Shown here: piece by piece, positions 25,671 through 33,826 of the stretch
Layout of the letters: every line of letters starts with the position of its first letter
How positions within the stretch are numbered: the stretch's first letter is position 1
DNA from: Bacillota bacterium
Lineage (GTDB): Bacteria; Bacillota; Bacilli; Alicyclobacillales; SLC66
Length of the DNA stretch: 64,000 nucleotides
Assembly (NCBI GenBank): GCA_026627345.1
Contig: JAPNUP010000010.1
Location: 1-64,000 of the forward strand
Reading direction: 5' to 3'
Notes under the pieces: model-generated
Told to the model about the DNA's origin: nothing
The model's database searches: none
What the model saw: only the letters and a program-made list of their open reading frames with translations
Position numbers and translations under genes: made by a program

Positions 25671-28600
25671 TTAGGCCAGTGACCATACCTGCTCGACGAT
25701 GATCTGTGGACGTTGCCCGCCACGCCGATCTACGCGGCCTGTGACGCCAACCAAGCGGCCACGAGGCGTAAAGAGGACGGCCCCTGACTCCTGATAGACG
25801 TGTTCGAACATCGTACAATCGGCAAATCCTGTTTCATCTTCGATGGTAAAAAAAACAGTGACCAAACCGGAACGCGTAGGTGGGCGATGTGGACGAATCG
25901 TCAGTCCTGCTAAAGAAACGGTGACTCCGTCTACAAGCGCATCGATCGCCTGCGTCGTCGTATACCCTTGCTCGTTTAGAGAGGCGCGGTACAAGCGTAG
26001 CCAATGACCAGAGACACCTACGCCTAAGAGGCTGTACTCGTCGCGCAGTTTCTCTGCGAGAGAAAAGTCCGACACCTCTGCCTCTATCGTTTCTTGACTA
26101 CTCCACTTACCTGCCGTGTCCCCCCACAGGCTCGTCGCCAAAGAGTCGCGCGCCGCAAGCCATACGGGTAGTTGCCAAAGGGCTAATCGTCTACCGCGCG
26201 GCTCGATCGAATCGAGCGCGCCACAGCGAATAAACCGCTCTGCCAGCAGTGGATCTATGCTGGGAACGCGCTGTAACAGTGCGGGGATAGAGTGAAAGGG
26301 CCCAGCCTCGCGCGCCAGCTGTAACTGTTCAGCCAACTCTTTTCGCATACCTTTGATGAGACGAAAGCCTAAGCGTATCTTTCCTTCCTCAACCGTGCAG
26401 GCATAATCGCTGGCATTGCAGTCTACACCGAGCAGTGCGACCCCACGTCGCTGTGCCTCCGCGCACACTACGTGGATGGGGTAATAGCCCATCGGATGGT
26501 TATTGAGAATAGCCGCATAGAATTCCGCAGGGTAATGTCGCACGAGATACGCGGTCTTGTAGGCGGTCGTGGCAAAAGCGGCAGCATGTGCTTCGCAAAA
26601 CCCATAACTCGCGTACCCTTTCATCATCGCAAAAACCTGACTGGCTGTATGTGTATCAACGCCTGCTTGAACAGCTTTGGCGATAAACTGCGCACCGATG
26701 TGGTCCATGTGTTCGGCTGAGCGCGCATGAGACATGACGCGCCGCAATTGGTCTGCTTCGCCAGGCGTAAATTGTGCAAGTGACGTAGCGATCGCGATGA
26801 CTTGCTCCTGGTACAAGATGACTCCGTATGTTTTGCCTAGAATGGGCTCGAGTTTGGGATGCAGATACTGGATTTCCTCGACGCCTCGTCGGCGTGAGAC
26901 AAACGGATCGACCATGTTGCCTTTTACAGGGCCTGGACGAATCAACGCGACTGAAGCGACGATGTCTTCTAACTGATCTGCACCCAGGCGGGCTTGTAAC
27001 GCGCGTTGGGCAGGTGACTCCAACTGAAAGACACCGATCGTCTCCCCGCGATTGATCATCTCGAAAGTGGCCTGGTCGTCGAGGGCAATCGCATCGTAGT
27101 CCAGTGGCTGCTGCTGTTGTGCACGCAAGGTAATCGTGTCGGAAATCGCAGACATGGTTCGTAATGAAAGAATGTCTAGCTTGACGAGCCCCACCATCTC
27201 TACGTCCTCTTTATCCCACGGGATGATCAGATCTCCTTTAGCAGACGGTTGAAGGGTAGTCAACGATAGAATCGGCTTGCGACTGATCACGACTCCACCG
27301 ACGTGCATGCCGAAGTGACGGGGGAAACCAGTGATCTGCGCGCTCAGTTGCCAAAGCCACTTCAGACGGTCTTGATAAGACTTGTAAGGTGCAAGCTCTG
27401 GTACATGATCCAGAGCTTGCTCGATATCTTGTGCTCCCACGTAGTAAGGGAGTCGCTTGGCCAAAGTATCGATCAACGACGACGGAAGCGCCAATGCAGC
27501 GCCGACTTCGCGGATCGCAGAGCGACCTCGAAATGTCTGGTAGGTAGCGACGCGCGCCACGTGCTGCGCGCCGTACTTGTCGTAGATATAAGCGATCACC
27601 TCGTCTCGGCGCCTTGCGTCAAAATCGATATCGATGTCTGGACGCTCAGAGCGTTCGATGGACATGAAGCGTTCGAATAATAAGCCACGCCCTGCTGCAT
27701 CGACATCTGTAATGTACAGACAGTAGGCGGCAGCGCTGTCAGCAGCTGATCCGCGCCCTGCACAGCGAATACCTCGCCTGCGCGCGAAGCGAACGATGTC
27801 CCAAACTACGAGAAAATACTCCGCATAACCGAGTTGCGTGATAATCTGAAGCTCATGGTCAATCCGCGCGCGCAGTGCGTGATCCACACGTGGATAACGC
27901 TGTACGGCGCCTTCGTATACCAGATGGCGCAGATAAGCGGCAGCATCGGTTTCGTCAGACGGTAGGTCAAAAGCAGGGAACAGGGCCTCGTGTAGCCGCA
28001 GCACTACTTCGCAAGACGTGGCGATGCGAAAGGTGTTGGCGACCGCTTCAGGATAACGGGCAAATCTACGCGCTGCTTCTCGCTCATCATGCAACCAGGC
28101 AGCTGCGTTTAACGGACGCTCGCCATGCGGTGTGCGAATGTCACAATCGGTGGCAATACAGCGCAAGGTGTCGTGAACAGGCAATAAGGCTGGTGTGTGA
28201 TAGTGTACATTAGCGCTTGCCACCAGAGGTAGGCCAAGCGCCTCGCCAAGATCCGCCAGATCTGCGTTGATGCGTTCGGTATGCGGCCAGTCATCCCCAA
28301 GGAGTTCGATATAGTAACGACCTGCGAAGGCTTGTGCGTAAAACGTAGCGATGCGCTTGGCTTCTGCGTATCGGCGCTGGATGATCTGCTTGGTGAGCTG
28401 CCCTCGTCTGCAGCCAGATAAGGCAATCAGGCCTTCCGTATACGGGAGTAGATCAGGTACGCGCACGATTCGCTCGCGCCGCCAGGCTTCTGTCGCATAA
28501 GCTGCAGTCAGCAAGCGGCATAGATTCTCATAGCCTGTAGGCGTTTTGGCGAGTACGGTCAGGTGAGAACCATCGTGCAAGGTGAGTTCAGCGCCTGAGA

Positions 28601-28781
28601 TCGGCTTGATCCCGTAGACTGCGCACCAGTGATGAAGTTGCGCTAATCCGGCTACTGTGTTGTGATCAGTCAAAGCGAGCGCAGGCATGCCGTGCGCGGC
28701 AGCTTGCGCCACCAGAGATTCTACAGAAGAAGCTCCGTCTAGCATCGAAAAATAGCTGTGAACGTGCAGATGCACAAACAC
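25671..28781 (-). CDS. dnaE2: DNA polymerase III alpha subunit, DnaE2/ImuC-like
   Basis: 1036 residues. The PHP domain begins at once (HLHVHSYFSMLDGA, ALTDHN). The polymerase core has the catalytic aspartates in PDIDIDFD and the HAAAFATTAYKTAYL segment. A C-terminal OB-type region follows (VTVFFTIEDETGFADC). Length and gene neighbourhood fit the error-prone ImuC/DnaE2 group rather than the replicative DnaE. Start GTG at 28781, six bases after the stop of the DUF6504-like gene. An SOS-controlled operon with the imuB-like gene is likely, because a perfect LexA palindrome precedes the first gene. Confidence 0.9.
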   Translation of the reverse strand: MFVHLHVHSYFSMLDGASSVESLVAQAAAHGMPALALTDHNTVAGLAQLHHWCAVYGIKPISGAELTLHDGSHLTVLAKTPTGYENLCRLLTAAYATEAWRRERIVRVPDLLPYTEGLIALSGCRRGQLTKQIIQRRYAEAKRIATFYAQAFAGRYYIELLGDDWPHTERINADLADLGEALGLPLVASANVHYHTPALLPVHDTLRCIATDCDIRTPHGERPLNAAAWLHDEREAARRFARYPEAVANTFRIATSCEVVLRLHEALFPAFDLPSDETDAAAYLRHLVYEGAVQRYPRVDHALRARIDHELQIITQLGYAEYFLVVWDIVRFARRRGIRCAGRGSAADSAAAYCLYITDVDAAGRGLLFERFMSIERSERPDIDIDFDARRRDEVIAYIYDKYGAQHVARVATYQTFRGRSAIREVGAALALPSSLIDTLAKRLPYYVGAQDIEQALDHVPELAPYKSYQDRLKWLWQLSAQITGFPRHFGMHVGGVVISRKPILSLTTLQPSAKGDLIIPWDKEDVEMVGLVKLDILSLRTMSAISDTITLRAQQQQPLDYDAIALDDQATFEMINRGETIGVFQLESPAQRALQARLGADQLEDIVASVALIRPGPVKGNMVDPFVSRRRGVEEIQYLHPKLEPILGKTYGVILYQEQVIAIATSLAQFTPGEADQLRRVMSHARSAEHMDHIGAQFIAKAVQAGVDTHTASQVFAMMKGYASYGFCEAHAAAFATTAYKTAYLVRHYPAEFYAAILNNHPMGYYPIHVVCAEAQRRGVALLGVDCNASDYACTVEEGKIRLGFRLIKGMRKELAEQLQLAREAGPFHSIPALLQRVPSIDPLLAERFIRCGALDSIEPRGRRLALWQLPVWLAARDSLATSLWGDTAGKWSSQETIEAEVSDFSLAEKLRDEYSLLGVGVSGHWLRLYRASLNEQGYTTTQAIDALVDGVTVSLAGLTIRPHRPPTRSGLVTVFFTIEDETGFADCTMFEHVYQESGAVLFTPRGRLVGVTGRVDRRGGQRPQIIVEQVWSLA

Positions 28782-28787
28782 TCTTCA

Positions 28788-29033
28788 TCAATCCCATACT
28801 CGATAGATAAACCACTGGTTTTGTGTACGTTCGAGATCGGCGACTACGCCGTCTCGTGTGGCGATGCGATAGATGATACGTTCCCCTTCACCTGCCCACC
28901 AGTCACCGGACTCACTCCAGCGATCGATCCATTCTTCAACGGTGTGCAAGGTGCCGTCAGCGTCTTGATAGCGTAGCGGGGCTTCGTCTCGCCATGCGCA
29001 AATGTGGATGAGCCGCTTAACCAAGCGGCTCAC
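28788..29033 (-). CDS. Small DUF6504-like protein in the imuB-dnaE2 operon
   Basis: 81-residue tryptophan-rich protein. The central WWAGEGERIIYRIATRDG and the ending NQWFIYRVWD fit the small DUF6504 family, which occurs next to or fused to Y-family polymerases. GTG start, overlapping the imuB-like stop by four bases (GTGA), so translation is coupled. A 9-bp perfect hairpin lies in its first codons (29010-29031). Function is unknown; a mutasome adaptor is a guess from context. Confidence 0.75.
   Translation of the reverse strand: MSRLVKRLIHICAWRDEAPLRYQDADGTLHTVEEWIDRWSESGDWWAGEGERIIYRIATRDGVVADLERTQNQWFIYRVWD
29010..29031 (-). promoter_or_regulatory. Hairpin at the start of the DUF6504-like gene
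   Basis: GAGCCGCTT-loop-AAGCGGCTC is a 9-bp perfect stem with a 4-base loop. In the mRNA it covers the second to ninth codons and touches the GTG start, at the coupled junction with the imuB-like gene. It may make translation depend on ribosomes arriving from upstream. Confidence 0.4.
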
Positions 29034-30241
29034 GCCGATCCATCTACTGTCAGCTGATGGCGCAGTTCTCGGTAGGAAGGGATCATACCCAGTGCCAATC
29101 CACCAGGAATCTTGCGATTGACTTGAAGCAGTGCGCGAGTCAGCGTGTCCTGCTTTTGTGAAGCGGGCGGTCCAGGCGCGTGCTCTGCGAGGTCGAATGA
29201 AAGTTGCTCTGTGGCTAAAGGTCGAATCTCATCTAAGCGAATGGACAGTTCTGTCACAGGTCTGGCGATCTGCGCACAGGCAGGAAGTAACTGGGTGAAC
29301 ATAAAATCGGCGTGCACGATCGGATGCTTCGCTGCACGAATGTACTGGCCTTGTACACCGTCAGCGGTAAGCCAGTAAAGGGTGACTTGCTTAGCCCCTA
29401 CGCCTTCTCTCGTCATCTGTTCAGATAACTCTTGTGTCATGCTGTCTAGTAGATGCGGAATCTGCGTAGTCGCGAGCGCTTCTGCTTGCTCTGCACAAAA
29501 AGAGGCCGTGCGCTGTTCTGGAGGATAATTGCTAGTCAAACGATCCGACTGCCTGGTCAAAGACTGTAACCACACCAAAGCGTCTTTACCAAAACGACGG
29601 CGCAGCAACGTCGCAGGTAGTGCAAGCAGGTCTGCCACTGTGTAGATGCCAAGAGAAAGTAACTGCTCCTTGGCTTTAGTAGGGAGAATCCACAAAGGCG
29701 AAAGAGGCATCGCTGCCAGCCAGTCGCGCTGCCCTTTGGCAAGAGCTGGCGAGACGATCACTTGTTGGCGTCCGAAGCGGCGATAGACGGCGCCTGGGAT
29801 GCGACCACAGCGACTCCACTCCACCAATGCGCGAGCGAGAAAAGGATTCTCTGCAAAGCCGATGCGAAAGCGTTGTTCCACGTTTAACATGTGATCAAGT
29901 GCCTGAACGATCTCGCGCAGCTCCGCAAAAGGTGCGGTAGGTCCTGTGATTTGTAGATAGAAAGCATCCCAGCCTGCTGTCTGAAGCCACGGAGAGAACT
30001 GATACAGGCGTTCCCATACACGTGAAACAGGGCGGGTGGCCTCGTCTTTCTCCTCGATCAAAAGTAGGTTTGGTATGAGCGATAAGGCGGTCTTGACTGG
30101 AAGGGGCGGCTGTACAGCGAGTTTTCTCGCCGATAAGGAGGCGTCTGTGATCCATCCTGCTTGTTGACTCGCCCACAAAGAAGCGTCTGTCTGTGCCCGA
30201 ACGCCTTCTCCGATGCCATAGAGTGTGTAACGCAACAGCAC
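29030..30241 (-). CDS. imuB: ImuB-like inactive Y-family polymerase
   Basis: 403 residues that align with Y-family polymerases from the palm to the little-finger domain. The N-terminal catalytic DxD region is missing or altered (the protein starts RYTLYGIGEG), and the SxDEA motif reads GWDAFYLQITG, so at least two of the three carboxylates are absent. A helix-hairpin-helix region is visible (LLSLGIYTVADLLALPATLLRRRFG split around the hairpin). This is typical of ImuB, which scaffolds ImuC onto the sliding clamp; a clamp-binding peptide is suggested by QLSFDL. GTG at 30241 or TTG two codons later is the start. First gene of the SOS operon. Confidence 0.83.
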   Translation of the reverse strand: MLLRYTLYGIGEGVRAQTDASLWASQQAGWITDASLSARKLAVQPPLPVKTALSLIPNLLLIEEKDEATRPVSRVWERLYQFSPWLQTAGWDAFYLQITGPTAPFAELREIVQALDHMLNVEQRFRIGFAENPFLARALVEWSRCGRIPGAVYRRFGRQQVIVSPALAKGQRDWLAAMPLSPLWILPTKAKEQLLSLGIYTVADLLALPATLLRRRFGKDALVWLQSLTRQSDRLTSNYPPEQRTASFCAEQAEALATTQIPHLLDSMTQELSEQMTREGVGAKQVTLYWLTADGVQGQYIRAAKHPIVHADFMFTQLLPACAQIARPVTELSIRLDEIRPLATEQLSFDLAEHAPGPPASQKQDTLTRALLQVNRKIPGGLALGMIPSYRELRHQLTVDGSA

Positions 30242-32295: not shown

Positions 32296-33390
32296 TCAGT
32301 CTTCAGGCTGAGTTGACTGCGTGTGCGTTTTTTTGCCAAACAGTTGTTGAACACTTTGGGCGACCTGCTCCGATAGCGCCGCCATAGGTGTTCTGGCGTT
32401 GTGAGACTTTAGCTGGGCCGACTTCTCGATCAGGCCGCGAATCACACAACTCTCCGGTTCTTTTGCCACTGTGGTTGGCACGCCGACTCTTTGTTCAATT
32501 TTACTTACCAACAGTGCGATGCGGGCCAGTCCGCCTGTCAACACAATGCCTCGCTCAGAGATGTCACCCGCGAGTTCAGGCTCGCACGTCGATATCGTCT
32601 GCGCAATCAGATCGATAACCGACGCGGCATAAGCGGTGAGCAACTCATCGACAATCGCACGCTTTACAAAGACTGTACCAGGCAATCCTGTGCGCAGATT
32701 GCGACCGCGCACGTTTTGCCCAGCGAGTTCTGGTTGCATAGACAATTCTCGTTTCATGTTTTCAGCCGTTTGTTCACCGATCAAGAAGAAATACTCTTTG
32801 CGCACGCGTTCCGCAATCAACCGGTCCATCTCCTGACCGCCATTCGGCAGGCGTCGGCTTTCCACCACTTCACCCATCGAGAGGACCGATGCTTCCGTCA
32901 CGCCGCCCCCGAGGTGTACGAGCAGACAGCCCGTGGCCGTATGCATCGGCAAAGAGGCGCCGAGACCTGCGGCAACCGAGGCTGGTACAAGCTCGATACG
33001 TTGTGCGCCGGCGAGTCGGCCTGCCTCTTGCAAAGAGCGACTCTGGATGTGTGTGAGATTAGATGGAACGGCGATGGTCAGGGAAACTTTAGAACGGAAG
33101 CGACGTGGTGAGAATTGCTCAATGCACGACCGCATAATGGCAGCGGTCGCTTCAAGATCGACGATAACACCTTCTTGCACGGGATGTACGATCTGCACAC
33201 GTTCAGGGCTACGACCGATCATCCGCTTAGCCTGCGTACCGATCAGAGGTGTTTTGGTTTTCGCGTGAGCGACCACACAAGGTTCTTGGATAACTTGTCC
33301 TTTGCCAGTTGCTGCGCGGTAGTGCGTTGTGCCAACATCCATCATCAGATGCACTGCGTCCACATTCCTTTTGTACACAGATACACCCAT
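32296..33390 (-). CDS. MreB-like actin ATPase (divergent paralogue)
   Basis: 364 residues matching MreB/Mbl over the full length: phosphate-1 loop MDVGTTHYRAA (DLGTAN in MreB), GTQAKRMIGRSPE, VHPVQEGVIVDLEAT, VPSNLTHIQSRSLQEAGRLAGA, HLGGGVTEASV, NGGQEMDRLI, IGEQTAENMK and VLTGGLARI. The nucleotide-binding motifs are relaxed compared with MreB, so it is a divergent paralogue. The ATG at 33390 follows AGGGGA; the long upstream open frame is only the leader read through. It sits behind a c-di-AMP riboswitch and a terminator, with the MltG-like-domain protein downstream. A role in wall synthesis under osmotic control is inferred. Confidence 0.82.
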   Translation of the reverse strand: MGVSVYKRNVDAVHLMMDVGTTHYRAATGKGQVIQEPCVVAHAKTKTPLIGTQAKRMIGRSPERVQIVHPVQEGVIVDLEATAAIMRSCIEQFSPRRFRSKVSLTIAVPSNLTHIQSRSLQEAGRLAGAQRIELVPASVAAGLGASLPMHTATGCLLVHLGGGVTEASVLSMGEVVESRRLPNGGQEMDRLIAERVRKEYFFLIGEQTAENMKRELSMQPELAGQNVRGRNLRTGLPGTVFVKRAIVDELLTAYAASVIDLIAQTISTCEPELAGDISERGIVLTGGLARIALLVSKIEQRVGVPTTVAKEPESCVIRGLIEKSAQLKSHNARTPMAALSEQVAQSVQQLFGKKTHTQSTQPED

Positions 33391-33409
33391 AAATCCCCTG
33401 GTTTTACAC

Positions 33410-33442
33410 AAAAAACTCCCCGTAGTCAATCCCACGGAGAGT
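33410..33442 (-). terminator. Leader terminator (attenuator) of the mreB-like operon
   Basis: On the minus strand ACTCTCCGT and ACGGGGAGT form a 9-bp stem with one wobble, followed by six T residues. It lies 20 bases before the MreB-like ATG and downstream of the c-di-AMP aptamer, so ligand-controlled premature termination is the likely mechanism. Confidence 0.75.
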
Positions 33443-33450
33443 GTCTCTAT

Positions 33451-33505
33451 CTCTGAATAACGGCGGCAGCTGCTTATTCTTCCCGCAGACGGTGGTGGAA
33501 AACAG
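33451..33505 (-). repeat. Dispersed hairpin repeat, copy 3, inside the riboswitch leader
   Basis: Read on the minus strand: CCACCGTCTGCGGGAAGAAT, then AAGCAGCTGCCGCCG and TTATTCAGAGA. It sits between the c-di-AMP aptamer and the terminator, in the same orientation relative to its gene as copies 1, 2, 4 and 6. Confidence 0.8.
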
Positions 33506-33589
33506 TTCTGTTGCCCGCCTATGGGAGTTTCATGTGCAAGTCTCGGCACAAAAGCCATCCTCGCACTCGCGCACTCGTCTATACATATT

Positions 33590-33740
33590 CATGTACAGAT
33601 TAGTCGAGGCGCTCTCCATGGACGCTTGCGAAGTTAGCTGACGGACTCGGGCAGGAGATCGCCCTACTGGTTATGGCCAGATTCGCCCCAAAAGCCTGGT
33701 TCCTCCGCTTCCTTTCGGAATTCAGCGTAAAATCGTATCT
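33590..33740 (-). ncRNA. c-di-AMP riboswitch (ydaO/yuaA class)
   Basis: The minus strand carries the conserved pieces of the ydaO/yuaA aptamer in order: GGAGGAACC (33706-33698), GGGGCGAAT (33689-33681), GCCCGAGTCCGTCAGCTAAC (33652-33633) and CTTCGCAAGCGTC (33633-33621). These riboswitches turn genes off when c-di-AMP is bound and typically control wall hydrolases and osmolyte or potassium transport. Here the downstream operon is the MreB-like plus MltG-like-domain pair. Exact edges are approximate. Confidence 0.88.
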
Positions 33741-33826
33741 GGTTGTACAAGTATTATAGATGACAAGACGGCGAAACGTCAAGATTCGACAATCGCGCCG
33801 TCGGATACAATGGACAGGCTTGCCGA

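Follow-up and report, generated by a model that had tools for sequence, protein, structure and literature searches.

A c-di-AMP riboswitch with an attenuator ahead of an operon for an active-site-degenerate MreB-family protein and an MltG-domain membrane protein in a Bacillota bacterium

Riboswitches of the ydaO/yuaA class (RF00379) are OFF switches found upstream of cell wall remodelling genes (PMC7266159, PMC9960051), and a review of the genes behind them names K+ and amino acid transporters as well as wall remodelling or osmotic genes (PMC7266159). The locus described here shares with this class a full aptamer, the conserved core and a downstream transcription terminator, whereas its target differs from the known ones, being an MreB-family gene together with a membrane protein that has only a domain of MltG. 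Text searches returned no description of an MreB-family riboswitch target, with an earlier listing in the surveys Block 2010 or Nelson 2013 being possible; what is novel is this target, a clade of MreB proteins with a degenerate active site whose genes recur behind c-di-AMP riboswitches together with those of wall proteins. The nearest functional precedent is MreBH of B. subtilis, likewise an MreB paralogue with a connection to a wall hydrolase, LytE, which it directs (PMC3817527), but MreBH belongs to another clade, retains the catalytic Glu and, in the two loci scanned, lies behind no riboswitch. Spiroplasma MreB3, in which phosphate release is slow (PMC9597168), is also an MreB-family protein without the E...T-X-[D/E] motif; it differs in its wall-less host and its role in motility. 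Proteins of the MltG/YceG family (e.g. Lmo1499, PDB 4iiw) resemble the membrane protein in having a membrane span followed by a LysM-like subdomain, whereas the protein of this locus is without the catalytic domain and has an additional conserved N-terminal region of about 120 residues. The likeness to RodZ is one of layout only (a cytoplasmic domain, a single span, an outer domain and an adjacent MreB-family gene), as RodZ has a helix-turn-helix domain that binds MreB and the membrane protein has no such match.

In the window, meaning the whole 64,000-nucleotide stretch of DNA that was analysed, RF00379 is the sole Rfam family with a match at gathering score. The match covers model positions 1–134 of 134 with 106.8 bits (gathering score 38, E 1.9e-24), confirming at full length the ydaO/yuaA riboswitch proposed in a first-pass annotation of the sequence. 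The features of the leader and the operon are collected in Table 1. The terminator hairpin, ACTCTCCGTGGGATTGACTACGGGGAGT, is 28 nt long and has an outer stem of 9 bp including one G-U pair, with 11 bp and −17.9 kcal/mol predicted for the hairpin as a whole and a T run behind it. It ends about 20 nt upstream of the ATG of the MreB-like gene at position 33390, in agreement with the 9-bp terminator 20 bases before the start codon that had been noted in the same annotation. Another start in the same frame, at 33558, would place the terminator inside the coding region; it was discarded because homology begins only after 33390 and the start at 33390 has a ribosome site. The RNA element and the operon as described here are near certain. 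Two diadenylate cyclase domains are encoded in the source genome (G000), so the ligand c-di-AMP is probably made by the host. Seven RF00379 riboswitches are present in this genome in total, and of the six besides the one described here, three precede genes for wall hydrolases (NlpC/P60 in two cases and LysM plus Hydrolase_2 in one; L092, L094, and L097). Most genomes of the order have 2–8 RF00379 matches, the sets of G047 (20) and G034 (18) being exceptionally large. Elsewhere in the window, at 25671–30241 on the minus strand, genes for a DNA polymerase III alpha (PHP, DnaE2-like) and a Y-family IMS-domain (ImuB-like) protein lie in a row with a small gene between them, an arrangement that resembles an ImuB-DnaE2 mutasome cassette.

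Table 1. Features of the riboswitch leader and the two-gene operon, in order of transcription
Feature	Position	Strand	Basis
Sigma-A-like promoter TTGACG-N18-TATAAT	33753..33782	(-)	Direct sequence; just upstream of aptamer
c-di-AMP (ydaO/yuaA) riboswitch aptamer, full length	33607..33737	(-)	Rfam RF00379
Aptamer 3' tail CCAUGGAGAG, predicted antiterminator strand pairing with 33441-33432	33612..33621	(-)	Duplex energy and shuffles
Intrinsic terminator, hairpin 33442-33415 plus U tract	33409..33442	(-)	Fold energy and T run
Ribosome-binding site AGGGGA	33394..33399	(-)	Direct sequence; precedes start codon 33390
MreB-like gene, 364 aa	32296..33390	(-)	Pfam MreB_Mbl; residue comparison; NCBIfam
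Bitopic membrane protein, 280 aa	31430..32272	(-)	Pfam, profile search, hydrophobicity, direct sequence

An expression platform that could switch, comprising a terminator and an alternative pairing, is found both in the window and in G014, a genome of the same genus. The 3' tail of the window aptamer and the 5' arm of the terminator, CUCUCCGUGG, form ten pairs, one of them G-U, and the duplex of the segments holding tail and arm has an energy of −24.3 kcal/mol, which is equalled by 0.05% of shuffled tails. The equivalent terminator hairpin of G014 lies in the same place with a different sequence, and its tail, UUCAGAGAG, and arm, CUCUCUGAG, are both altered with the pairing retained (−15.9 kcal/mol, equalled by 0.7% of shuffled tails). 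The tail-terminator pairing is unclear in G217 and only partial in G011 and G012. Pairing between tail and arm fits an attenuator in which bound ligand favours the terminator, like the prototype OFF switch of B. subtilis (PMC9960051), and by analogy with the known riboswitch class the window riboswitch would also act in the OFF direction. The minimum-energy fold of the whole leader without ligand already includes the terminator, which means that switching would have to be either kinetic, like that of many attenuators, or leaky; we infer that the choice between terminator and antiterminator is made during transcription. The first start codon in G023, G035, and G037 follows the aptamer by 2–7 nt and the ribosome site is located within the tail, so the switches there look translational, a mode reported for nlpC of Corynebacterium glutamicum (PMC9960051).

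The first gene of the operon encodes a protein with a full-length Pfam MreB_Mbl match (E 1.2e-79, 268 bits versus 27), and the PDB entries closest to it in sequence are solved structures of MreB. Its NCBIfam scores are below the MreB cut-offs (258.4 and 237.6 bits against 293 and 365.75) and below the MreBH cut-off (218.4 bits against 515), and the six further clade members tested likewise fall under the MreB and MreBH cut-offs. Its initial description as a divergent MreB-like actin behind the leader stands. The clade of MreB-like paralogues comprises 25 members, 23 of them from the 59 genomes of the order and two, G147 and G217, from other families in a class-wide draw of 400. A related-locus search with the MreB-like protein gave only canonical-level matches in distant phyla (L045–L047), which were set aside. 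A quick maximum-likelihood tree places these 25 paralogues on one side of a branch with an SH-aLRT of 100, opposite 41 MreB, Mbl, and MreBH sequences, with the inner order of the clade left unsure by its long end branches. The clade, which is new in this analysis, is separate from MreB, Mbl, and MreBH.

For hydrolysis in other MreBs the catalytic Glu, the Mg-site Asp and the catalytic Thr are of importance, the Glu being required for normal ATPase activity, and the E...T-X-[D/E] ATP hydrolysis motif has been defined in the same work (PMC9195046, PMC9597168). In the window protein the catalytic Glu is changed to Ala, the Mg-site Asp to His and the catalytic Thr to Val, the motif positions reading A, V, and E, so neither the motif nor the Mg-site Asp is retained. 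The site of the catalytic Glu (E140 of CcMreB, E134 of ScMreB5) is occupied by Ala, Ser, or Thr in 25/25 paralogues and by Glu in 41/41 canonical sequences, and the Mg-coordinating Asp (D156 of ScMreB5) and the catalytic Thr (T161) are replaced in 21 and 22 of the 25 paralogues, respectively. Two further positions are specific to the clade, Arg25 (24/25 paralogues, with Leu in all canonical sequences) and Leu320 (25/25, with Thr in all canonical sequences), and such nearly fixed residues indicate that the nucleotide site has been remodelled and not simply decayed. Loss of ATPase activity in the MreB-like clade is predicted from these replacements. The full-length MreB_Mbl match and the phosphate-1 Asp, conserved in 25/25 paralogues, would also be expected of an ordinary ATP-cycling MreB isoform, with the operon adding elongation capacity, but the universal absence of the Glu, the losses at the Asp and Thr sites, the NCBIfam scores of the window protein and six other members and the separate position of the clade make this explanation highly improbable. 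A subgroup of four genomes (G025, G031, G024, and G021; L085, L086, L087, and L089) keeps the Mg-site Asp but not the catalytic Glu and is without a riboswitch, and its neighbouring genes look, by eye, like phosphotransferase-system genes.

The second gene starts 23 nt past the stop codon of the MreB-like gene and has the ribosome site AGAGGGA. Its product consists of a conserved N-terminal domain (~120 residues), a hydrophobic span at about 131–150, a variable linker and a C-terminal LysM-like domain of the YceG/MltG type. The YceG match of the latter (E 2.5e-6, under the family cut-off) covers profile positions 6–64 of 275 and ends where the gene stops, so that the catalytic YceG domain is absent from the protein; nor does such a domain follow, since the gene stops before a convergent galE-like gene. 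The protein had been described beforehand as having an MltG-like LysM-type domain and no catalytic domain, and this description stands. All ten members of the membrane-protein family match YceG, the window protein with a score under the Pfam cut-off, and the family profile matches residues 27–103 of PDB 4iiw (E 5.8e-8). An AlphaFold model made without an alignment is poor (mean pLDDT 51.9), and the order of its LysM-like elements weakly supports the assignment. The N-terminus gave no Pfam match in the ten family members, and no helix-turn-helix or RodZ match. At E 1e-5, homologues of the membrane protein, including a few weak or partial ones, are found in 30 of the 59 genomes, and they mostly lie apart from the MreB-like gene. 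In the genus g8 genomes G011, G012, and G013 (L100, L101, and L102) a c-di-AMP riboswitch is located directly before the homologue, with a terminator close behind it in at least G011 and with no MreB-like gene, indicating that each gene of the operon is tied to the riboswitch independently.

A riboswitch heads the operon containing the MreB-like gene in 9 of the 25 genomes (G000, G014, G018, G023, G034, G035, G037, G147, and G217), which belong to families f1, f2, f36, and f44. A different leader in close relatives had been named beforehand as an argument against the proposal, and in G014, the closest relative, the leader is the same (107.6 bits) and precedes an MreB-like gene 55% identical to that of the window, followed by a homologue of the second gene that overlaps it by 4 nt and whose frame runs off the contig end. 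A search of relatives for the gene pair had also been proposed; the exact pair is limited to two genomes, G000 and G014, and it is the riboswitch link of each single gene that extends more widely. The MreB-like gene stands alone behind the riboswitch in G018, with a ROK-type regulator as the following gene, and in G147, which has no adjacent wall gene, and it is followed in G034 by a Peptidase_S11 D-Ala-D-Ala carboxypeptidase-like gene. In G023 and G217 the MreB-like gene with its riboswitch is divergent from an NlpC/P60 gene and a LysM protein gene, respectively, each of which bears a riboswitch of its own. The order in G035 and G037 is riboswitch, SLT transglycosylase gene, MreB-like gene. 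This arrangement, in which the transglycosylase gene immediately follows the riboswitch, and the lost catalytic site are compatible with the MreB-like gene being a decaying passenger and the riboswitch serving the neighbouring wall gene. Such a passenger is improbable, as the MreB-like gene is first behind the riboswitch in seven genomes, its riboswitch is separate from that of the divergent wall gene in G023 and G217, and it has conserved residues of its own at Arg25 and Leu320, where canonical proteins are fixed for others, a pattern unlike decay. At L071:4622–5015 and L132:473–951, in genomes from two taxonomic orders, two c-di-AMP riboswitches lie back to back in opposite orientations, the first serving a wall protein gene and the second the MreB-like gene.

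The canonical MreB, Mbl, and MreBH loci, scanned with flanks of ~1.5 kb using a model built from the clade-locus aptamers, had a riboswitch in 0 of 41 cases; the same model re-found every paralogue-locus aptamer, most of these being in its own training set. The comparison of 9/25 with 0/41 gives a Fisher p of 5.5e-5, and a binomial calculation based on an assumed 10 riboswitches per 3000 genes yields 1e-16, both values being uncorrected for relatedness, and parsimony on the tree needs seven riboswitch gains or losses. The riboswitch is missing at the locus in 16 of the 25 clade genomes, so its link with the MreB-like gene is recurrent and not universal; G033 has none though its two-gene operon is otherwise like that of G034, and in G015 (same family) the paralogue is present with no riboswitch even at a lax threshold.

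The recurrence of the riboswitch before this MreB-like family, with cell wall enzymes and in several families, suggests a wall-remodelling module run by c-di-AMP. Our main reading, to which we give a probability of about 0.6, is that a transcriptional riboswitch, turned OFF by c-di-AMP, governs a two-gene operon for wall remodelling with a non-cycling actin scaffold, and its computed basis is the aptamer, the terminator, the tail pairing, the operon layout, the residue losses and the recurrence with wall genes. At low c-di-AMP the aptamer tail would pair with the terminator's 5' arm, letting transcription proceed; with c-di-AMP bound, the folded aptamer would withhold the tail, the terminator would form and the operon would be off. 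The MreB-like product would most likely bind nucleotide without cycling and serve either as a stable membrane-proximal scaffold or as a partner of ordinary MreB/Mbl filaments. The membrane protein would span the membrane with its MltG-type LysM-like domain on the wall side, joining the scaffold to peptidoglycan, and in relatives other wall enzymes would fill its place. The model further supposes that the MreB-like protein behaves as a filament or scaffold, that the two proteins touch and that the wall is affected. The first-pass annotation had tied the second messenger to the elongation machinery; the link to c-di-AMP is supported, but "elongation" is too simple a term in view of the catalytic residue losses, which had been missed, and of the partner genes, which indicate wall remodelling.

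Both G000 and G014 carry two canonical copies in addition to the MreB-like gene, and an active site lost while the actin fold is kept would also suit a non-polymerising modulator that caps, blocks or co-assembles with MreB/Mbl filaments, through which c-di-AMP would tune elongation indirectly. A Spiroplasma MreB isoform has been reported to regulate how a partner isoform polymerises (PMC12337190). We consider such a modulator rather unlikely, because the partners in relatives are wall enzymes and not elongation factors (MreC/MreD, RodZ). Returning to the c-di-AMP-repressed operon with its scaffold, a broader version can be put forward tentatively, as a generalization we would not yet favour: that the clade represents non-hydrolysing actins with a rewritten nucleotide pocket, forming static scaffolds that place varied wall-remodelling proteins, with recurrent c-di-AMP riboswitches switching the whole system separately from the MreB/Mbl elongation machinery.

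The residue changes and the clean split in the tree define a protein group that general models label merely MreB-like. Effects of c-di-AMP on wall integrity and osmotic balance are established, and its link to the cytoskeleton has so far been open. The present analysis provides such a link at the genome level, in that an MreB-family clade predicted to be non-hydrolysing by the known route is found under predicted c-di-AMP control in several families together with wall enzymes, and it raises the questions of whether c-di-AMP controls an actin-like scaffold and what role an MreB may have without ATP turnover.
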